This document shows, in pieces, positions 926 to 39,806 of a stretch of 39,806 bases of DNA. The translations under genes and the position numbers were made by a program. Source of the DNA: a virus; the IMG/VR virus record IMGVR_UViG_3300034374_002328, positions 1-39,806 of that record; one strand, written 5' to 3'. A model generated the notes under the pieces. That model was given only the letters and a program-made list of their open reading frames with translations, was not told the origin of the DNA and did not search any database. Position 1 is the stretch's first letter, and the number at the start of each line of letters is the position of its first letter.

Positions 926-1861
926 TTACTTGTTGATATAGTCTACCACCTTTGTAGCTTGTTGCATTGCGTAGACGCATTCTTTTGGCTTATCTTCTAA
1001 ATACTTGCACCACCCTTTGATGTATGCTTGGCTATTAGATTCGTTGTCTTTTGGCTCAAGACCCAACATACCTACTAAATACATTGCTGATATTTCAGCG
1101 ACCAACTCTTCCTTGGCATACGTTGTATCCCCCCACTTATTGACTTCTAACAACGTCTTTCTGTTGAGTCTGTCCTTGTGACCCGTACTGTGCGCCAACT
1201 CGTGAAATAGCACCTTGTAATAGCTATCTGCATCAACAAAGGTATTTATCTTTGGCATATTAACTATATCCCTATTTGGCGAATAATACGCACTGTCTTC
1301 CAAGTGAACCAACTTCAAGCTACCTTGCTTATCTATATAGCTTTTAGATAGGGTCTCAGCGATTTCGATTGGTTCGTTGGTGACATCTGATACAACCTCA
1401 TCCATCACCTTTGGCTCAATACCCGTACATTGTGCTACATTGTACACGTGAAATGTAGTTAGGCTAAATGTCTTTCGATACCTTAAATTGCCATTACTCA
1501 TTCGTTCATTTGGGTTAACTAGCTTAACTAACTTTTTCGGTACAAATTTGTCTGTTGAATTATCAAAGTAGCCGATGTTCCAACGTGTTATTGGAGTGTA
1601 CTTTTTATTCTCCGCCTCAATGACTCTCCCGCCCTTTGCCATAACTTGATTCCACGTTAGCCATTGGTTATATTCGTAACCCTTATCTATCATTTCAAAG
1701 TTTAAAATGAAAATGTTGAAACCATTATAAAACCTATCAAGTGCTAGGTTGAATGGAGCATTAGCTTGACCCGACTTCCAAGGCTTAAACCAAGATAAAC
1801 CCTTAGCTTTTAGACCTTCAATTACCGTTTTGTTGATTTTCTCAAAAATTTGATTTTGCAT
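926..1861 (-). CDS. ardC: ArdC-type anti-restriction protein with zincin domain
   Basis: The 311-residue product has the two-part layout of ArdC proteins. Residues about 1-145 match the N-terminal single-strand DNA-binding domain, with the typical WFKPWKSG region near the start and FNIFILN following. Residues about 180-311 form a zincin-like peptidase domain with HELAHSTGH at 220-228 (His220, Glu221, His224) and a downstream EELVAE at 251-256 that would supply the third zinc ligand (Glu252 or Glu256). ArdC proteins of plasmids and phages protect incoming DNA from restriction; the enzyme activity of the zincin part is less clear. The gene starts at ATG 1861 in the early operon, where early anti-defence action would make sense. 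The length is normal for the family. Confidence 0.9.
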   Translation of the reverse strand: MQNQIFEKINKTVIEGLKAKGLSWFKPWKSGQANAPFNLALDRFYNGFNIFILNFEMIDKGYEYNQWLTWNQVMAKGGRVIEAENKKYTPITRWNIGYFDNSTDKFVPKKLVKLVNPNERMSNGNLRYRKTFSLTTFHVYNVAQCTGIEPKVMDEVVSDVTNEPIEIAETLSKSYIDKQGSLKLVHLEDSAYYSPNRDIVNMPKINTFVDADSYYKVLFHELAHSTGHKDRLNRKTLLEVNKWGDTTYAKEELVAEISAMYLVGMLGLEPKDNESNSQAYIKGWCKYLEDKPKECVYAMQQATKVVDYINK

Positions 1862-10432: not shown

Positions 10433-11971
10433 ATGTCTAACGAAATCGTTAAGAACTTAAACTTCGGAGACGAAGGTAAAAATAAAGTGTTTGAAGGTGT
10501 ATCAAAATTAACACGAGCCGTTAGTTCCACATTAGGAGCTAGCGGTAAGTGTGTAATGCTTGAGGACTCATCTGGCAAACCACTAATCACAAAGGATGGT
10601 GTAACTGTAGCAAATGCAGTTATACTTCTAGACCCTGTTGAAAATATGGGTGCAACGCTTTTAAAGGAAGCAGCTAGACAAACTGTTAAAGAAGCAGGGG
10701 ATGGAACAACTACTGCTACAGTATTAGCACACTCTATATTAAAAGAGGCATTTGCAACAGACAACTACAACTCAAGAGAAATCAGAGATGGTATTAACTC
10801 AGCAGTTGAAAAGGTCGTTAAGTACCTAGAGGGCGAATCAGTTGAAGTTAGTGGTGATATGCTAAAGCAGGTTGCCACAATATCTTCTAACAACGACTCT
10901 AGCTTAGGTAAAATTATAGCTAAGGCTTTTGAGGATGTAGGAGAGAATGGTGTTGTTAGTATGGAAATATCTAATGACGAGGAAACATCGGCAGAAATAG
11001 TTGATGGAGCTTCAATTGATAAAGGATTAAAGAATCACCACTTTATTAATAACAAAGAGAAAGGTACTTGTGAGTTAAATAACCCACTTGTATTAATTGT
11101 AGAAAGCAAGATACCTAACGTAAGAAAGGTACAAAGCATTCTTGAGTACGTAATTAAGAACAACAAGGAACTACTAATTATCGGAGATGCCGATGAACAG
11201 CTAGTTACAGCGATTTCAATGAACGTATCTAAGGGTAACATTAAAGCTAATATCATTGACGCACCTGACTACGGTATTAATAAAAAGCAAACATTACAAG
11301 ACTTTGCTGCATTGACTGGAGCAACTGTAATAAATGAGGACTTAGGTGACGATATGGATTTAATTGACGTAAGCCACCTAGGAACGTGTTTAAAGGCCGT
11401 TACTACACAAGATGATACTATCATCCAAGTAGAGGAGATTAATGACGACACAAAGGCTCTAATCAAGCAGATTAAAAAAGAACTTAAGACAACAAAGATT
11501 AATGGTAAGAAACACTTGCTTGAAAGAAGGTTGTCAAGACTAGCTGGTAAGGTTGGTGTAATTAAAGTTGGTGCAAACTCAGAAGTTGAGTTAAAAGAAA
11601 AAGCTGACAGAGTAGAAGATTCTATCTGCGCTACTAAAGCTGCTATTAAAGAAGGTATACTTCCAGGTGGTGGAATTGCATTACTTAACGCTAGTGGTAA
11701 GGTAACCCCATCTAATATAGGAGAAGAAATACTTTTAAAGGCTATTCAAGCTCCATTTGAAGTTATAATGTCCAATGCTGGTATTACTAAGTTTGAATAC
11801 CCTACTAAAAAAGGACGTGGGTACAATGTAGTTACAGGAGAAGTAGTTAATATGATTAAGGCGGGAATTATTGACCCACTACTTGTTACAAAGAGTGCAT
11901 TAAAAAATGCGGCATCTGTAGCTAATACGATACTTGCAACTGATTGTGTAATTAATAACTTGAGAGCATAA
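10433..11971 (+). CDS. groEL: Phage GroEL-type chaperonin, 512 aa
   Basis: The protein aligns by eye along the whole of bacterial GroEL. It has TKDGVTVA at 53-60 (Asp55), GDGTTT at 89-94 (Asp90), the GGG nucleotide loop at 412-414 and RVEDSICATKAAIKEG with Asp396, the equivalent of the ATPase Asp398 of E. coli. The apical domain keeps the order FINNKEKGTCEL and LLIIGDADEQ. Differences: it is shorter (512 against about 548 residues), lacks the GGM-repeat tail and ends LRA; at the substrate-binding face the two tyrosines near 199 and 203 of the E. coli protein are Leu and His. It would form an ATP-driven folding chamber for phage proteins. The codon use is AT-rich like its neighbours, so it is long resident. 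The stop overlaps the groES start. Confidence 0.95.
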   Translation: MSNEIVKNLNFGDEGKNKVFEGVSKLTRAVSSTLGASGKCVMLEDSSGKPLITKDGVTVANAVILLDPVENMGATLLKEAARQTVKEAGDGTTTATVLAHSILKEAFATDNYNSREIRDGINSAVEKVVKYLEGESVEVSGDMLKQVATISSNNDSSLGKIIAKAFEDVGENGVVSMEISNDEETSAEIVDGASIDKGLKNHHFINNKEKGTCELNNPLVLIVESKIPNVRKVQSILEYVIKNNKELLIIGDADEQLVTAISMNVSKGNIKANIIDAPDYGINKKQTLQDFAALTGATVINEDLGDDMDLIDVSHLGTCLKAVTTQDDTIIQVEEINDDTKALIKQIKKELKTTKINGKKHLLERRLSRLAGKVGVIKVGANSEVELKEKADRVEDSICATKAAIKEGILPGGGIALLNASGKVTPSNIGEEILLKAIQAPFEVIMSNAGITKFEYPTKKGRGYNVVTGEVVNMIKAGIIDPLLVTKSALKNAASVANTILATDCVINNLRA

Positions 11972-31394: not shown

Positions 31395-33113
31395 ATGGCA
31401 TTAGTTAGAGAAATTACATACTTCAACTCTTTTATTATAAAGAAGACCGTAGAGTCTGGCCGTGGAAAGGCAAGCTGGCCTTCTCTACCTTGGAACCCAA
31501 ATGGATACCCAACATTTCCACTAGAGGTTTCAACTACAGATTCTGATGTTGAATATGATTGGTATGTTGAGGAATCTAGAATAAGAGGTGGATATAATAA
31601 TACACAAGTAGACTTAGGTGTAAAGGCATACATAACAGAAACAGAAGACACAGAGTTAGTCCTTGAGAATGGATTAATATACTCTGGATTATATAACTCT
31701 AGAACTGGAGTAAACGAAACAAATGTTTTTTCTACAGGGGAGAATATAACAAAAGAAGTAGACCCTAGATATGGAGGCATACAAAAGTTATATACGTCTG
31801 ACACAAACTTAATTATTTTTCAAGAGGACAAAGTTAGTAGTGCACTAATAGATAAGGATGCAATATATACGGCTGATGGAAACCCTGCACTTACAGCTAC
31901 TCAACTTGTTTTAGGTCAAATTAACCAATACTCAGGAGAGTACGGTATAAGTGATAATCCAGAATCATTTGCATTCAAAGGTTACAGAATGTATTTTTCT
32001 GACAAAAATAGAGGAGCAATAATGAGGCTTTCAAGAGATGGCCTTACTGAGATAAGTAGGTACGGTATGAGGGATTACTTCCGTGATACGTTAGCAAATA
32101 TTTCAGAATCTTTTGATGCTACCAGTGAGATTGTATTTTATTCGTTATCTCCAGTGTATCCTCCAGTTGGGCCTGGACAACCTACTCCTACAAGTACCGA
32201 TACTTGGGACATTGTAGGTGGAGTTAATGATAGCAGTGTATCTAAAATAGAGTTAGGTATGGCGACAAGTAGAGCATTTGGAGGGTTAAATGGAATCTAT
32301 GTAATTAGCATTACATCTATTAATACTACAAATAACACAGCAACAATAAAATTTAATCAAACGATTCAAACTGATAACTTTGCAAGCGTTGACTTGTATC
32401 TAATTAAATTTGTTAAAGATAAAGTTGTAGGTACATACGATAACTTTTACGATAAGTATGTGGTATCAATGCAGCAGACTGAACTAGAAACTTATGACAC
32501 CGCATCATTCAACGATAGCAATAACGGATGGACTAGTTTTTGGGACTACGACCCAAGCTTTGGTGGTACACTAAACAATATTTATTATACAACAAAAGGT
32601 GGTTCTATATGGAAACATTACGATGAAAGTGTAATTAATAATAGGGGGACTTTCTATGGAACTTACTACCCAACATCTGTTACGTTATCTTTCAACCCAA
32701 TGGTATCTGTATCTAAAAACTTTAATACAGTAAACTACGAAGGGACAAACGGTTGGCAGGCTGATTTCTTTTTATCAGACCCTACGGGAAACTTACAAGG
32801 TAATAACTATAAAGACGAATCGTCATTTATATACAGCTATGACGAAGGTTCTTATACTGAATCAGGGGTTACATACAGAGTTGGATTTAATATAAAAGAT
32901 AATAAATATTTTGCTAACTTAGTAAACAAAGGAGTTCAAGCTAACGGAAATAATACAATTGCATTTGGAATGCCAGGACAGGTTGTTCCAGGAGCAAGTA
33001 TGAGTGGAATAAAAGGATTTTTTGCTACAGTTAAATTAAGTACGGATAACACAACAGATTTAGGTGGTCCTAAAAACTTATTTGCAGTATCGTCTAACTT
33101 TGTTAAATCATAA
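31395..33113 (+). CDS. Large tail (nozzle-like) protein, C-terminal part, 572 aa
   Basis: The product contains RGGYNNTQVDLGVKAYITET, then GLIYSGLYNSRTGVNETNVF, and FQEDKVSSALIDKDAIYTAD, a block that, from family knowledge, I associate with the C-terminal half of a larger single protein in related phages. It also has KGYRMYFSDKNRGAIMRLSR and RYGMRDYFRDTL. Residues from about 240 on are beta-rich. The start MALVREITYF follows GGTATATATTT. It probably assembles with the 27703 product in the tail. A genuine split into two genes is more likely than a sequencing error (see findings). Confidence 0.75.
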   Translation: MALVREITYFNSFIIKKTVESGRGKASWPSLPWNPNGYPTFPLEVSTTDSDVEYDWYVEESRIRGGYNNTQVDLGVKAYITETEDTELVLENGLIYSGLYNSRTGVNETNVFSTGENITKEVDPRYGGIQKLYTSDTNLIIFQEDKVSSALIDKDAIYTADGNPALTATQLVLGQINQYSGEYGISDNPESFAFKGYRMYFSDKNRGAIMRLSRDGLTEISRYGMRDYFRDTLANISESFDATSEIVFYSLSPVYPPVGPGQPTPTSTDTWDIVGGVNDSSVSKIELGMATSRAFGGLNGIYVISITSINTTNNTATIKFNQTIQTDNFASVDLYLIKFVKDKVVGTYDNFYDKYVVSMQQTELETYDTASFNDSNNGWTSFWDYDPSFGGTLNNIYYTTKGGSIWKHYDESVINNRGTFYGTYYPTSVTLSFNPMVSVSKNFNTVNYEGTNGWQADFFLSDPTGNLQGNNYKDESSFIYSYDEGSYTESGVTYRVGFNIKDNKYFANLVNKGVQANGNNTIAFGMPGQVVPGASMSGIKGFFATVKLSTDNTTDLGGPKNLFAVSSNFVKS

Positions 33114-33566: not shown

Positions 33567-34247
33567 ATGACATTTATAGCAGTAGCAATCGGTGTTGGAG
33601 TAGCGGGCTCTATTGGAGGAGCTATTCATAAAAATAGAACAGCAAAAAGACAAGAAAAATCAGCTAGAAAAAATGCTGATTTAGCTAGAGCTAGAATAGC
33701 TTCTCTTGAGGCTAGTAGACAGGATATTATAAATCCATACGAAGCTATAACAGACTTGTCAGGTAACTTAAGCAACACATACAATAACCTAGGTGTTGCT
33801 ACTCAGGCTGCTGAAATGCAAATAGAGCAGACTGATATTGCTTTAGCTAATACGTTAGATACAATAAGAGCTACGGGTGGAGGTGCTGGAGGAGCCACTG
33901 CACTTGCACAGGCTGCATTACAGAGTAAGAAAGGAGTTTCTGCAAGTATAGAGGCACAAGAGTCAAAGAATGAACAACTAAGAGCACAAGGAGAGCAACA
34001 ACTACAACAGTTGGTTATGTCAGAACAACAAAGAGTCCAACAAGCGGATGCGGCAGGAAGGGCTTTTGTTTACGGAGAGCAAGAAAACAGAGAGATGATG
34101 GCGTTAGATAGAGCACAAGCAGACTTAAATAACGAAGTGGCTAGAAAACAGGCTGCTCAACAGGCAAAGTATCAAACAACTTCAGATATATTTGGAGGAA
34201 TTTCTGGGGCTGGATTTAATTTCGCTACTGCTGGTATTGGTGCTTAA
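33567..34247 (+). CDS. Internal virion / DNA-ejection protein, 226 aa
   Basis: Residues about 1-20 form a Gly/Val-rich hydrophobic segment (MTFIAVAIGVGVAGSIGGAI). A Lys/Arg/Ala-rich helix follows, and from about 110 the protein is a long Ala/Gln-rich helix (QGEQQLQQLVMSEQQRVQQA). This layout is typical of the small internal virion proteins of podoviruses that are released with DNA and form a channel through the envelope. The Gly-rich end (FGGISGAGFNFATAGIGA) may insert in membrane. The position before two large virion genes fits. Confidence 0.8.
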   Translation: MTFIAVAIGVGVAGSIGGAIHKNRTAKRQEKSARKNADLARARIASLEASRQDIINPYEAITDLSGNLSNTYNNLGVATQAAEMQIEQTDIALANTLDTIRATGGGAGGATALAQAALQSKKGVSASIEAQESKNEQLRAQGEQQLQQLVMSEQQRVQQADAAGRAFVYGEQENREMMALDRAQADLNNEVARKQAAQQAKYQTTSDIFGGISGAGFNFATAGIGA

Positions 34248-34264: not shown

Positions 34265-36148
34265 ATGAACGATAACTATAGAACTGCAATAATAGAGGGT
34301 AGCAAGTCTTTAACTCCTGGAATGTCTGAAGGTATTGAGCAAGCTTTAGAGGCACAAAGGTTAGCTATAAAACAAGCCAACGCTAGAGAGGAAATTAATA
34401 GAAAAAATAAACTAAAGACAGAAATTGCTGTTCAAGAACAGATTGCTGGGATTGTAATTCCTAAAGAGTCAGCATATGGAGAGGTTGACGTTGCCAATCA
34501 AATGAAGGGATTGATAGCTACTCATACCGCAGATAAAGTTGCTATAGAACAAGGGACGGCTACTGAAGAACAAGTAAAGCGTTCAATTGCATATAGTAAT
34601 TATTTTAAAAATATGGGGCAAACATTTGGAACTATGTCTTATGTTATTGATGAATTTTTAAATATTAAAAATACTAAGGGCACTGATGGAAAATCAGAAG
34701 GGTCTATAGATTTAAGTAGTGTTGACCCAAGATTTAATGAGTTATTAAATATACAGGACCCAAACTCTACTGCTGAAGGGAAGGTTTCTATTGATGTAAG
34801 CTATAAGGATGGTAAAGTTCAAACATATCAAGTAGTTAAAAGTGAAAATATAAGAAAAATAAATAGAGAGCTTTACGAGTCTGAGACTAATCCTGAATTA
34901 AAAAAGAAATATTTAGATGAAAGCGGAGAAATATCCGATACATTTAAGTTATCTTACGATGAGATTCAAAGCTTTGTTGACAATAAAAATGGCAATATAT
35001 ACTTAACTGGCAATCAATTTGGTACAGTTCCAGGCGTTTCTCCTGTAAAAGATTATGCAATTAAAAACGAGATAATTGGAAAAGATGGTTCTCCAAACGC
35101 AGATTATATGTCACAAATCCCATTCCAAAGAACAATAACACAGGACGGTAGGCGTGTTGTTGTTGATGTTACACGACCAGAAGTAAACAAAATAGCAGGA
35201 GCTTTAAAATCAGAGTCTAATGCTTTAACTAGACTGATGTTTGGTGGTGGGGAAAATTCAGCGTATGCTTCTTTTGTCAAGGCTAACTTTGATAAGTTTG
35301 AGGGTAGTACTATTGATAAAGATGGGAGTATAATGGTTCCCTTACTTAAGAGAAACGAAGCTGGAGATTATGAGCTTGATGAGAATGGAAACTATATACC
35401 CGAAGATAGTCCTACAGAAATTGGTAGTAGTAGTTTAAGTGGGGGTAGATTTAATATGCGTACTGGAGTTGGGAATGAAAACTTAGGGATGACTAAGGAA
35501 GACTTTGACAAGGCAAATAGGTTCACTCAGGATGTTGCAATGATAAGCTTAAACTTAAATGGGGCAAGCAAGGAAAAAATAAATACAACAGCTACTAATG
35601 CAATAAATGCAGTTCCTGATACTACTGAGGAGGTTAGAGAACCAAATATAGCGGAGCTTAAGATTATGAGAAAAGAAGAAACAATAGAAGGTGTAGTTGA
35701 TAAACTAAAAGAATTTAATAAGATTATTGAACAACCAGCCTACTCAGGAAAGGTTGACCCTAATACATCGATAGAAAAAAGAGTTGAAATTGCAGGTGAT
35801 GCAGAGAAGAGAAGAAGTGAGGTTGATAAAATAAAACAAGAAGTTTATAATGTATTAAAGCCTGATATGCCAGAATCTTCAGTTAGGATTGAGCAAAAAG
35901 GAAACAAGTTTAAGCTTTACATAAAAGTTCCATATGACGTTCAATTTAAAGATTCAGGAGAGCCAAATGTTGTGTACTTACGAAGAGAAGTTAATGAAGT
36001 TCCTTTTGATATAGATGACATAAAAGGGATTGAAAAATACTTAATTGATAAAATGATTGGACTTGACCCTAAAGAGGTGTCTAAGAGATTCCCTAAAAAA
36101 GAAACCTCAAAAAAAGTAGAAATATCAAATTTAGCTAAAGGACTTTAA
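34265..36148 (+). CDS. Internal virion protein, 627 aa
   Basis: The product begins MNDNYRTAIIEGSKSLTPGM and has a helical, Ala/Gln/Lys-rich N-terminal region (EGIEQALEAQRLAIKQANAR). The middle is mixed and polar with many Asn and Gly, including GVSPVKDYAIKNEI; the C-terminal part is a beta/alpha domain (SVRIEQKGNKFKLYIKVPYD) and a basic end (FPKKETSKKVEISNLAKGL). Position and size match the second internal virion protein of podoviruses, ejected after infection. No enzymatic motif is visible. One base separates its stop from the next start. Confidence 0.65.
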   Translation: MNDNYRTAIIEGSKSLTPGMSEGIEQALEAQRLAIKQANAREEINRKNKLKTEIAVQEQIAGIVIPKESAYGEVDVANQMKGLIATHTADKVAIEQGTATEEQVKRSIAYSNYFKNMGQTFGTMSYVIDEFLNIKNTKGTDGKSEGSIDLSSVDPRFNELLNIQDPNSTAEGKVSIDVSYKDGKVQTYQVVKSENIRKINRELYESETNPELKKKYLDESGEISDTFKLSYDEIQSFVDNKNGNIYLTGNQFGTVPGVSPVKDYAIKNEIIGKDGSPNADYMSQIPFQRTITQDGRRVVVDVTRPEVNKIAGALKSESNALTRLMFGGGENSAYASFVKANFDKFEGSTIDKDGSIMVPLLKRNEAGDYELDENGNYIPEDSPTEIGSSSLSGGRFNMRTGVGNENLGMTKEDFDKANRFTQDVAMISLNLNGASKEKINTTATNAINAVPDTTEEVREPNIAELKIMRKEETIEGVVDKLKEFNKIIEQPAYSGKVDPNTSIEKRVEIAGDAEKRRSEVDKIKQEVYNVLKPDMPESSVRIEQKGNKFKLYIKVPYDVQFKDSGEPNVVYLRREVNEVPFDIDDIKGIEKYLIDKMIGLDPKEVSKRFPKKETSKKVEISNLAKGL

Positions 36149-36149
36149 T

Positions 36150-39100
36150 ATGAATGAAATAGAACTATTAGTAAGAGATTTATATGGTAAATATGCTCCA
36201 AATGATTTTTCAGAAGATAAAATATCTTATGTAAAAGAAAACTACGAAAACCCTGAAGATTTTGTAAGAGATTTCTACGGTAAGTATGCCCCTGAAGAAT
36301 ATAGCGAAGACAAAATGAAGTATATCAGGGATAATTATTTATCTACCACTACTACATCAGAAGAAGTATACTTGGGAAAGCCCGAAGCTGTTCAGGATGC
36401 TGCACCTGTGACAGCGGAAGAAGGGGCAGTAGGTACGGAATCAATATTGGAAGATGGTTTATTGGACTTTCCAATTGAAGGAAGCCTTAGTTTAGATAAC
36501 GAATTACAACCAGAATATCTTATAAACGACAAGAAGGTTAAAAGAAGTGATTTAAATGACAAACTATACGATTCTGATTTTATAGAGGAAATTCAAGACG
36601 GCAAGATTAATGTGTCGGTAAAGAATGACCCTAAAATTATGGACTTGCTTGAGAGACAAGTTAATTCTGGTAGTCAGTGGGGTGATAAAATAGAAGCATT
36701 CAATAGTGGACTTGCTACATTAGCTTCTGGAATTACTGGTGTTCAATCATATATAGAGGATGTAATTACAGAAATAACAGGATTAGAGCCTACAGGTATG
36801 GCTTTGATTCAAAAGGGAGCAAGAGACCAAGTATCTGAGTCTTTGGCTAAAAAAGCTGAAGAGTTAAGCAATCAACAAAGAGCGTATAAGGATGACTTTA
36901 TAGGTAGTATATCTGAAGGGAATATATTAGATGCTACGAATATTGGATTTAATACTGTAGCTAACTCAGCTCCGATGATGGTAGTTGCTGGGCTTACAGG
37001 AGGTGCAGGAGGTGTTTCTGGAGCTTTAACTAGTGCAGCAACAATGTCTGGAATTATGATACCAGCAGAATATGCAAGCACTAAGATATCTGAAGATGAA
37101 AAAATTAAAGAGTTGTCCGATGGGGACAAACTAACTAGAGCGTTCCTTAGAGGTGGCGCAGAAGGTGTGTTTGAAGGTCTTATGGGGCCTGTTGGGGCTA
37201 GGTCTTTTTCTTTATTTAAGGATGGGGTTAAAAACCTAGTTAAGACAGCAGCAAAAGAAGGTGGAGTTGGAGCAGCTAAAGAGGTTGCTGAAGGAATTGG
37301 TAAAAAAACTGCACTAGAAGTATTTAAGACGTTTGGTATAAGCACTGCTGGAGAGGGTGGCTCTGAAGCTTTAACATCATTGTCGCAAGACCTAACTGAT
37401 GACTACTTAGGTATTCAAAACCTGTCTGTGGAGGAATATATGAGAAACGCTGCTGAAGCTGGTGCTTTAGGTATATTTATGGGTGGAGTTACCACTGGTA
37501 CTTTAGGTGGTGCAGGTCAAGTTATGAGTTACTTGCCGTTAAGAAACCAAAAGGTTTACCAAGGTGCAAAAACAGAGGTTAGAGAGAAGCAAGAAAGCGG
37601 GGAGATAAATAATGAAGAAGCCAAGCAAATGGATGACGCTATTGAGTCAGCCAAAGTAGCATTGGATAAAACAGACCCAAGTCTTAGTGAAGATAATCAA
37701 GAAAGAGTTGCAAAGCTTATAGATGAGAGAGAAAAAATAAAACTAGAGATAGAAGGTCTTGACGAAAACCAAGTTCCTGTTCAAAATAAAAAGAACAGAA
37801 TAGATGAAATAAATAAAGAGATATCGGAAATAGGAATAGAAAAACCATCGACAGAGGAGGAGACTGGTGCCCCAATCACCCCAGAAGAATCAGCGAGTGT
37901 AGAGACTGCACCTGCGGAAGAAGTAGTAGGAGAAAGTGATAATAAGGAAGAAGTCAGCTACAATGGTATTTTTTCTGTTGAAACAACTGGACTGTCATCT
38001 ATAGATGATGTGGCTTTTTCTGACAAAGAAATGAAGAGTTATCATAAATACTATAAGGACAAAGAGTCCGAAATAGTTATGATGTCTCCTGATGAGTATT
38101 TAAAAAGAGTTAGAGAAGGGTTTGGAACTGATGTAGATGAAAATATACTAGAAGGCAAGCAAGAAAACATACAGTCAGGCATTGATAAAGGAGATAAGAT
38201 TGATATGCCATATATTTATTATGACGAAAATGGGAAAATGATTAGTCAAGAGGGTAGAAATAGAGCTACCTTAGCAAAGAAAAAGGGGGAAGAATTAATA
38301 CCAGTGGTTGTTCAGAAAAGACTATCTTTTGATGATAAAGTTGGAGATGCTCGAAATGAAATAGCTGATGCTGTAAAAAATGGAATTACAAACAAAGATG
38401 ATATATTCAACTTTATTCAGTCAAAATATGGACTGCATAGAGATAAGAGGGGTTTTATTGAAAGGAATGTAGATATAGATAAGGTTATAGCTACTAACAC
38501 TAAAAGCGAAACAGTATCAGAAACGGAACAACAGACAAGTGGTGCGGAATCCACCCCAGAAGAGCCAGTGAGTGTAGAGACTGCACCTGCGGAAGACGTA
38601 GAAGCTCCTTACGACATTGAAGAGTATAACAAGGCTATGGAAGAGGGCTTTGTTGATAATGATTTAATAGAAGAGTTAAAGGACGAGGAGATAAACAGAG
38701 CTTACGAGACGCAAGAGGCAGAGCGTCAGGCAGAGCAAACCCAACTGAATAGAGACGGAGAAGGAGGTCTTTTTAGTTTTTTAGCAGAAAATTTAGGTAG
38801 AATAAGACCTGAAGATTTTGATGCTTACGGAGATGCTAATTTAAGAAAGGGAGACAAATCTTTTTCTATTAAATTTTTATCTAAAAAAGCATTGCCTTTA
38901 GATATGAATGTTCAAGAGCTATCTGACATATATGGTTCAGAAATAACACCTCAAGACGCTATTGACTACATACTAGATAAGCAAGCTAATCCTGAAAAAT
39001 ATACAAAGTCTAAAACAAAATTAGAAGCACTAAACAAAGCTGCAAAAATAAAAGGAGCTACTGCTAGTGAGGCTTTTGATATATACAGTAATCTTGATGG

Positions 39101-39806
39101 TAGCGAAGCCTCTATGAAAGCTATTGATGACATTACAGGCACTGTTTTGTCAGACGAGCAAGCTATTATAATTAAAAATTATTTAAAACTAAAAGAAGAT
39201 GGGAAAAAGACCGACTCCAGAGCAAGTAAAAGCATACAACAGCCTGATGACGCTGCTACAGAAAGCGCAGAAACAACAAAAAAAGAAGTAGAAAAAGTAG
39301 CAAAAGAAGCAGGCGTTAAAGCTAAAAACATTAGAGGCTTATATGACGTAAACAGAAAAATGTTTGGTCAAAACAGAGTTAAGTCTTTGGCTAGCGCTAT
39401 TGTAATGGATAGAGCTATTGGTCAAATGGCTAAACGTGAAGGAGTACCGAAGTCTGAAATGTACGGTAAGATACAGTTTAAGAAGGGAGAGAAAGCACCA
39501 AGTGGAGCGTTAAAGCAAGAAGCACCTACATTTAAGTCTACTGCAAAAGAAGGACTAGACAAGCTACCTAATAACCCAATGACACCAGAAGCTTGGGTGA
39601 AACAAATAACAGAAAAGGGTGGTAAAGGAACATCACAAGAATTAGATTGGATTGGTCTTAATGATTACCTGAATGAGTGGAAGAAGGAGGATAAAGCTAA
39701 ATCTGTACCTAAAGAAGTAGTAGAACAGTATATTAATGACAATCAGATTGAGATTGTTGAGGTAACGAAGGGTGGCAGTGAAAAAGAATCGTTTGATAAA
39801 TTATTT
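36150..39806 (+). CDS. Giant polyvalent-type internal virion protein, partial (1219 codons, open at right edge)
   Basis: The frame runs without a stop from ATG 36150 to the window end, so the gene is incomplete here. Residues 1-62 are two tandem repeats with VRD.YGKYAP and SEDK. Residues about 271-311 form a long Gly/Ala-rich hydrophobic stretch (MMVVAGLTGGAGGVSGALTS). Residues about 390-570 are charged coiled-coil-like. Near 686-715 lies MPYIYYDENGKMISQEGRNR, resembling ParB-like or polyvalent-protein domains. Near 1144-1205, EAWVKQITEKGGKGTSQELD followed by WIGLNDYL matches the 'large polyvalent protein' domain I know from ejected phage proteins. Such proteins bring several activities into the cell at infection. 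The catalytic parts may lie beyond the edge. Confidence 0.75.
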   Translation, partial: MNEIELLVRDLYGKYAPNDFSEDKISYVKENYENPEDFVRDFYGKYAPEEYSEDKMKYIRDNYLSTTTTSEEVYLGKPEAVQDAAPVTAEEGAVGTESILEDGLLDFPIEGSLSLDNELQPEYLINDKKVKRSDLNDKLYDSDFIEEIQDGKINVSVKNDPKIMDLLERQVNSGSQWGDKIEAFNSGLATLASGITGVQSYIEDVITEITGLEPTGMALIQKGARDQVSESLAKKAEELSNQQRAYKDDFIGSISEGNILDATNIGFNTVANSAPMMVVAGLTGGAGGVSGALTSAATMSGIMIPAEYASTKISEDEKIKELSDGDKLTRAFLRGGAEGVFEGLMGPVGARSFSLFKDGVKNLVKTAAKEGGVGAAKEVAEGIGKKTALEVFKTFGISTAGEGGSEALTSLSQDLTDDYLGIQNLSVEEYMRNAAEAGALGIFMGGVTTGTLGGAGQVMSYLPLRNQKVYQGAKTEVREKQESGEINNEEAKQMDDAIESAKVALDKTDPSLSEDNQERVAKLIDEREKIKLEIEGLDENQVPVQNKKNRIDEINKEISEIGIEKPSTEEETGAPITPEESASVETAPAEEVVGESDNKEEVSYNGIFSVETTGLSSIDDVAFSDKEMKSYHKYYKDKESEIVMMSPDEYLKRVREGFGTDVDENILEGKQENIQSGIDKGDKIDMPYIYYDENGKMISQEGRNRATLAKKKGEELIPVVVQKRLSFDDKVGDARNEIADAVKNGITNKDDIFNFIQSKYGLHRDKRGFIERNVDIDKVIATNTKSETVSETEQQTSGAESTPEEPVSVETAPAEDVEAPYDIEEYNKAMEEGFVDNDLIEELKDEEINRAYETQEAERQAEQTQLNRDGEGGLFSFLAENLGRIRPEDFDAYGDANLRKGDKSFSIKFLSKKALPLDMNVQELSDIYGSEITPQDAIDYILDKQANPEKYTKSKTKLEALNKAAKIKGATASEAFDIYSNLDGSEASMKAIDDITGTVLSDEQAIIIKNYLKLKEDGKKTDSRASKSIQQPDDAATESAETTKKEVEKVAKEAGVKAKNIRGLYDVNRKMFGQNRVKSLASAIVMDRAIGQMAKREGVPKSEMYGKIQFKKGEKAPSGALKQEAPTFKSTAKEGLDKLPNNPMTPEAWVKQITEKGGKGTSQELDWIGLNDYLNEWKKEDKAKSVPKEVVEQYINDNQIEIVEVTKGGSEKESFDKLF
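36159..36341 (+). repeat. Tandem repeat at the N-terminus of the giant protein
   Basis: Two units of about 29-30 codons, each with VRD(L/F)YGKYAP, then SEDK and a Y-rich end (YVKENY; YIRDNY). They could be a docking or virion-entry module. Confidence 0.7.
37877..37921 (+). repeat. Internal direct repeat, copy 1
   Basis: This 45-base stretch matches 38552-38596 at 42 of 45 positions, with the last 27 bases identical. It encodes a PEES/PEEP-type linker with SVETAPAE, in the same frame in both copies. Confidence 0.8.
38552..38596 (+). repeat. Internal direct repeat, copy 2
   Basis: Second copy, about 675 bases downstream, in frame. The spacing is a multiple of three, so recombination between copies would delete 225 residues without breaking the frame. 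Confidence 0.8.

Follow-up and report, generated by a model that had tools for sequence, protein, structure and literature searches.

A giant open reading frame at the end of a podovirus record: the probable start of a polyvalent, ejected cargo protein, with modules joined at shared DNA linkers

Introduction

What does a podovirus encode in a frame that stays open for more than a thousand codons and then runs off the end of the record? We address this question for the virus record IMGVR_UViG_3300034374_002328, the window of our analysis being the entire 39,806-base record. Its giant open reading frame (ORF), labelled P0001, does run to the record end without a stop, as a preliminary description made from the letters alone had stated.

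36150..39806, plus strand: giant ORF P0001, ATG start, 1219 codons visible, no stop up to the record end

We consider it probable that P0001 is a polyvalent, ejected cargo protein, and the visible ORF is most likely roughly the first 40% of its gene. In this scheme the head would hold the giant together with two smaller cargo proteins, whose genes lie just upstream, and the giant would exit before the DNA does. The N-terminal repeats and the Ala/Gly-rich region may help the protein to cross the host envelope or to line it, and the modules of its middle and C-terminal parts (a ParB/Srx-like block, one further module, an LPD+QSDW unit and probably more beyond) would take effect inside the host during entry. 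The membrane role, the enzymatic acts and the functions of the modules are what we infer from the features described below.

Complete counterparts and the missing end

From the L002 locus and the loci found with the muzzle gene, 47 ORFs of at least 1000 amino acids were taken, omitting L016, which lies in the same record as L002. Complete counterparts number 28 and span 1411–3859 amino acids, the shortest belonging to a broken gene. The nearest backbone relative, P0003 (2672 amino acids, L087 record), matches P0001 at residues 75–562 (32%) and 1045–1216 (63%). Between these parts P0003 has about 70 residues (552 to 624), and P0001 thus holds about 410 extra residues there, which include the ParB-like block and a module at residues 800–1040. 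P0003 carries HELAH and continues for 1872 amino acids past the point where the window stops; by analogy, P0001 would be expected to go on for about 1870 residues after residue 1216.

The expectation that enzymatic modules would lie further on finds support in these relatives. HExxH occurs in 22 of the 28 complete giants, against 0.09 expected after shuffling. In L103, a near relative from the record that also holds L008 (its muzzle is 67% identical), the giant exceeds the curated Pfam cut-offs for ART-PolyVal (1.3e-21) and for LPD23 (2.2e-13). P0002, the giant of the L002 record, shows a GNAT domain that reaches the cut-off of one model and stays under those of the others. When 18 giants were scanned with Pfam, L103 and one GNAT were recovered, and none of the remaining 16 had a match at 0.001. 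The longest counterpart, 3859 amino acids in ctfjg026 (L098, 741–12320, minus strand), is annotated as 'reticulocyte binding/rhoptry protein', probably a misannotation.

No longer copy of the window genome was found among the places searched; the muzzle of L003 is identical, but its record ends within the muzzle. The last 186 residues of P0001 have four related loci in the viral_contigs set, none identical. Used there as separate queries, the N-terminal region and the ParB block found no relatives, and the module at residues 800–1040 found one, again the L002 record. The INPHARED phage set gave no match to P0001 at 1e-5, and a PDB sequence search returned nothing for P0001 or P0002. A Baculo_PEP_C row for P0001 (Pfam, 0.0081) lies far under its cut-off and was judged to be chance.

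The C-terminal end of the visible part

39285..39497, plus strand: adaptor (residues 1046–1116)
39498..39797, plus strand: LPD half (residues 1117–1216), truncated at the record end, of the LPD+QSDW unit, which is common in polyvalent proteins

The adaptor is followed here by the LPD and in P0004 and L088 by a module that we take to be ART-like, a call made from its motif; in Pfam, P0004 has a weak DUF3990 row only. 'QSDW' is our own label for the second half of the unit. An alignment search of the genome_contigs set with QSDW found 70 loci in many phyla, and LPD lies upstream in 69 of the 73 QSDW-bearing ORFs (the 70 genome_contigs loci and two phage loci, selected by QSDW). Scanning genome_contigs with adaptor plus LPD gave no relatives. 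The known polyvalent-protein domain of the preliminary description corresponds to residues 1117–1216, the N-terminal half of this unit, and could not be tied to any one of the numbered LPD domains of Pfam.

The predicted structure of LPD+QSDW is good, with a predicted local distance difference test score (pLDDT) of 85.7. The model has 24 matches in BFVD with an expect value (E) of 0.001 or less, which are predicted phage proteins, some named ART-PolyVal-like or 'Large polyvalent protein associated domain'. Searches of the PDB with the structure gave no clear fold, the listing being filled by coiled coils, and there was no PDB sequence match. Foldseek comparison of the QSDW domain, which lies beyond the window, with HAT1, FemA and SSAT reached E 0.4–1 only, a hint from the model that QSDW may be GNAT-like. 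LPD+QSDW also makes up a gene by itself, of about 550 amino acids, in many Gammaproteobacteria genomes (L177–L202, mostly gammaproteobacterial contigs).

The N-terminal part and the ParB/Srx-like block

36162..36245, plus strand: N-terminal repeat copy 1 (residues 5–32)
36255..36338, plus strand: N-terminal repeat copy 2 (residues 36–63)
36393..37556, plus strand: N-terminal backbone region (residues 82–469), with profile matches to P0003, L088, elemo_90 and phi38:1 gp101; proposed membrane/ejectosome part
37599..37862, plus strand: 88-residue helical collar (residues 484–571), present in 16 of the 1153 ORFs searched
38010..38312, plus strand: putative ParB/Srx-like core (residues 621–721, GRNR motif)

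The tandem repeats claimed at the N-terminus are present as two 28-residue copies at an offset of 31 (p 0.01, the lowest value that 100 shuffles allow). Such self-matches are found in some giants and not in all: 13 of 48 non-redundant N-termini (54 giants minus 6 near-duplicates) reach the floor of p 0.01, and 12 of 288 inner control segments have a self-match at p 0.025 or less. Several N-terminal motif families were met almost exclusively at the start of giants or of ORFs that occupy the giants' position, and short motifs of this kind are possibly a packaging or exit tag. The families seen in L100, L012, L031, ctfjg026 and P0004 comprise about 30 residues, often in two copies, and are unrelated between lineages.

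The membrane-like stretch survives in compositional form: residues 260–460 are 30% Ala+Gly, compared with 16% overall, and the best 19-residue hydropathy, 1.31 at residues 276–294, is low for a transmembrane helix. In 49 of the 54 giants the 200-residue segment richest in Ala/Gly begins ahead of residue 700, compared with 21 expected if uniform. The 16 collar-bearing ORFs are giant proteins or pieces at the giants' place.

For the block at residues 621–721, the assignment as ParB/Srx-like can be kept as a weak one, resembling as it does a single homologue, Acinetobacter phage nACB2 ORF015 (tblastn 6e-6), with a GR[NH]R...IPV core in common; GRNR (residues 702–705) aligns with GRHR of nACB2, and a conserved active-site arginine is characteristic of DdrB-like ParB domains with the ParB/Srx fold. 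Pfam, PHROGs and NCBIfam have nothing for the block, and a two-sequence profile against the PDB gave weak SbnI rows (E 0.2–0.4) among unrelated rows. The structure prediction of residues 595–1219 is poor (pLDDT 43.9), and no ParB-like GR[HN]R was found at the corresponding place in other giants.

DNA linkers and module exchange

37865..37929, plus strand: DNA linker copy 1, a direct repeat, encoding ...TPEESASVETAPAEE
38540..38604, plus strand: DNA linker copy 2, in frame, 675 base pairs (bp) from copy 1 and 85% identical to it
38575..39293, plus strand: exchanged module; over 719 bp its DNA is 91% identical to L002:10032-10744, in a giant otherwise unrelated

The ParB block is framed by this 65-bp direct repeat, 27 bp of which are exact between the copies. 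The window has two copies of an exact 17-bp core, whereas two matches were reached in 0 of 100 shuffles even with 3 mismatches. Giants from five further records (those behind L002, L005, L009, L010 and L011) also contain the core in frame. Among 12 viral contigs with the core, these five are in-frame giants of the window clade, and the other seven carry it in unrelated short frames that look like chance; since the L009, L010 and L011 records are close to each other, the independent cases number about three plus the window. In related phages this linker lies at the equivalent junction and is followed by different modules. Three of 45 giant genes, namely those of the window, L104 (19 bp) and L114 (as a tandem array), contain exact repeats of at least 18 bp spaced at least 150 bp apart, as does 1 of 199 other genes; in-gene linker repeats are thus no general trait of giants. 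The L114 array, at codons about 1483–1770, consists of in-frame NSQVTDLG-like 20-residue units.

Over 71 bp, linker copy 1 is 85–86% identical to L005, L009 and L010, compared with 58–59% in the 152 bp upstream, 50–53% in the 150 bp downstream and 51% at random. At copy 2, agreement with L002 begins in the last part of the linker and is 86% downstream, such that the module common to the window and P0002 begins inside the linker. This pattern is as expected from exchange with a break inside the linker, and recombination there would explain it. At the protein level the module (residues 800–1040) is 88% identical in P0002, whose surroundings are unrelated, and other genes of the two records are 65–88% identical in aligned pieces. 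Of 225 codons, 175 are identical, 32 synonymous and 18 replacement; 48 of the last 50 are identical. A candidate relative of the module, Caulobacter RW_gp021 (E 0.04), had no meaningful context and was dropped.

Judged from these comparisons, the backbone (N-terminal region, collar and C-terminal region) appears to be kept while modules behind the collar are often replaced, and in-frame exchange at a conserved DNA linker has probably happened in the window clade. A further step, which we put forward tentatively and would not expect to be the likelier outcome, is that the position behind the collar serves as a cassette port, at which the linker of about 65 bp lets effector cassettes be swapped, stacked and lost in frame between co-infecting phages. 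Homologous recombination between such phages would change the injected arsenal while the delivery backbone stays, and the ParB cassette between two linker copies would be one stacked cassette. Conserved boundary sequences are known in lambdoid phages. The protein class is known, and linker-bounded module swapping would be the new detail; no report of such exchange in polyvalent proteins was found in the open-licence PubMed Central (PMC) literature searched. The shared in-frame linkers offer a concrete sequence-level hypothesis of module trading, a question left open by domain catalogues.

Virion presence and alternative explanations

The record of Cellulophaga phage phi18:3 notes 'experimental MS/MS proteomics' (tandem mass spectrometry, MS/MS) for gp120, gp121 and the giant gp123. 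A three-sequence profile of the P0001 N-terminal region matches elemo_90 (1.4e-14) and phi38:1 gp101 (4e-7), values that refer to a set of 57 proteins, the gp101 match covering just 115 residues; gp101 in turn matches phi18:3 gp123 (BLASTP 7.7e-16). Virion presence thus holds for a homologue two steps away from P0001, by way of gp101, and not for P0001 itself. By analogy, P0001 is most likely packed in the particle and injected with the DNA, ejection being modelled on crAss001 cargo (PMC10172136), the N4 virion RNA polymerase (PMC12633501) and polyvalent proteins (PMC5512222). The giant multi-domain ejected protein of the preliminary description is thus upheld by the lengths and domains of relatives and by gp123 in virions, with ejection itself a matter of analogy.

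Besides the small profile set and the short gp101 match, several points weigh against a polyvalent cargo protein. P0001 has no significant match in the curated families of Pfam, PHROGs and NCBIfam, HExxH is absent from its visible 1219 residues, and hydropathy gives it no clear transmembrane helix. P0001 and P0002, at the same gene position, have nothing significant in common beyond the exchanged module, so the same position is no guarantee of homology. A metagenome chimera at the linker keeps a residual probability; against it, the frame is open through both junctions, and the order of N-terminal region, adaptor and LPD is as in P0003.

Were P0001 a plain structural giant, tape-measure or scaffold-like, with decayed 'domains' inactive in the host, it would fit that cultured-phage counterparts are mostly annotated 'structural protein', that the visible part holds no proven catalytic domain and that the counterparts in phi38:1, phi18:3 and Panino are shorter and have no HExxH. 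The intact HExxH of most complete giants, the ART-PolyVal and GNAT domains and the excess of synonymous over replacement codons in the exchanged module, which hints at constraint, speak otherwise, and we regard this explanation as improbable. Still less probable is a crassvirus-type virion RNA polymerase or polymerase-associated giant like crAss001 gp47, gp49 or gp50. The crAss001 gene order is equal (gp44 muzzle, gp45 C1, gp46 C2, gp47 of 2341 amino acids), gp45–gp47, gp49 and gp50 are in virions according to PMC10172136, and gp47 has HEAFH at 2157; against this, no giant matches gp47, gp49 or gp50 by BLASTP at 1e-4, D-x-D-x-D of the double-psi-barrel was not found in the visible part of P0001, and relatives bear polyvalent-type domains.

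The linker repeats could also be kept for the protein, as a flexible hinge or zincin cleavage site, and not as DNA exchange sites. The linkers encode Pro/Glu-rich ETAPAEE hinges between modules, and autoproteolysis of polyvalent proteins has been proposed by Iyer et al. (PMC5512222). The identity extends to codon level, as in the exact stretch between the two copies, drops on both sides of the linker between phages, and one shared module starts inside it; a protein-level reason is possible and, in our view, rather unlikely. For P0001 itself, the polyvalent cargo protein stays our preferred explanation.

Gene neighbourhood and host

31395..33113, plus strand: muzzle/nozzle-like tail protein (Pfam crAss_MUZ_C 2.7e-8; phrog_14478 1.2e-41)
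33567..34247, plus strand: cargo-like neighbour of 226 amino acids, homologue of the MS/MS virion protein phi18:3 gp120 (8.6e-30)
34265..36148, plus strand: neighbour of 627 amino acids, at the position of phi18:3 gp121

Upstream of the giant, Pfam and PHROGs identify terminase, portal, structural proteins, GroEL and the muzzle-like protein, so that P0001 stands beside virion genes in a conserved order. The muzzle search of viral_contigs gave 80 loci; in relatives of sufficient length the order is muzzle, often a protein of 133–172 amino acids, one of 200–300, one of 350–800 and the giant ORF, the giant region being split into several ORFs in L014 and L035. The muzzle-to-giant order is also annotated in phi38:1, phi18:3, Panino, Gundel_1 and elemoA, with small genes interposed in some. 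The 627-residue neighbour has homologues in just 10 ORFs and found no relatives as a viral_contigs query. Distant from the giant gene is a member of the anti-restriction family phrog_7245 (926–1861, minus strand; 2.7e-61). The phage-encoded GroEL-like chaperonin (10433–11971, plus strand) belongs to phrog_5725 (2.6e-134), and relatives are also annotated with GroES or GroEL/GroES.

Portal and muzzle have 87 phage-record matches each (Flavobacterium 68, Cellulophaga 15, Tenacibaculum 2, Maribacter 1), and the host is probably flavobacterial. The virus is a podovirus in the Pachyviridae/Pervagoviridae/Elemovirus neighbourhood, with relatives among cultured Cellulophaga and Flavobacterium phages. 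A probable polyvalent cargo protein is placed in a group of flavobacterial podoviruses for which virion proteomics exists and some members can be cultured, so that entry effectors are testable there.

Comparison with known systems

Like the polyvalent proteins of Iyer et al. (2017, PMC5512222), P0001 and its relatives are very long, probably multi-domain and encoded beside late virion genes; that family has ParB-like, zincin, ART, GNAT and LPD modules and predicted injection with DNA, and its zincin-like peptidase, present in about 36%, is not obligatory. Unlike them, P0001 has no curated domain match, its candidate domains within the window being the weakly ParB-like block and the LPD half, and its modules stand behind a conserved N-terminal region and are split by shared DNA linkers, which the available portion of PMC5512222 does not mention. 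Domain shuffling in phage proteins, with ongoing fragment exchange and mosaicism, is known (PMC10684548), and the available main text of that paper does not mention polyvalent proteins, ejection proteins or linkers.

The closest cultured systems are phi18:3 gp123, phi38:1 gp101 and the elemo giant (Pachyviridae, Pervagoviridae, Elemovirus), which have the same place and the same neighbours, phi38:1 and elemo providing the N-terminal profile similarity and phi18:3 the MS/MS virion protein; they differ in carrying other modules, in their lengths of 1935, 1691 and 3694 amino acids, respectively, and in a module part that is not alignable. The muzzle, cargo, cargo, giant order equals the muzzle-C1-C2-gp47 order of crAss001, whose cargo (gp45–gp47) is stored in the virion; on the other hand, there is no sequence match to gp47, gp49 or gp50, and the named phage relatives of the window portal are flavobacterial. 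The N4 virion RNA polymerase is a giant ejected chain with a membrane-like N-terminal domain, an enzyme part, an HExxH region and a large helical C-terminal domain, and its likeness to P0001, in whose visible part no RNA polymerase motif is seen, is one of working only.

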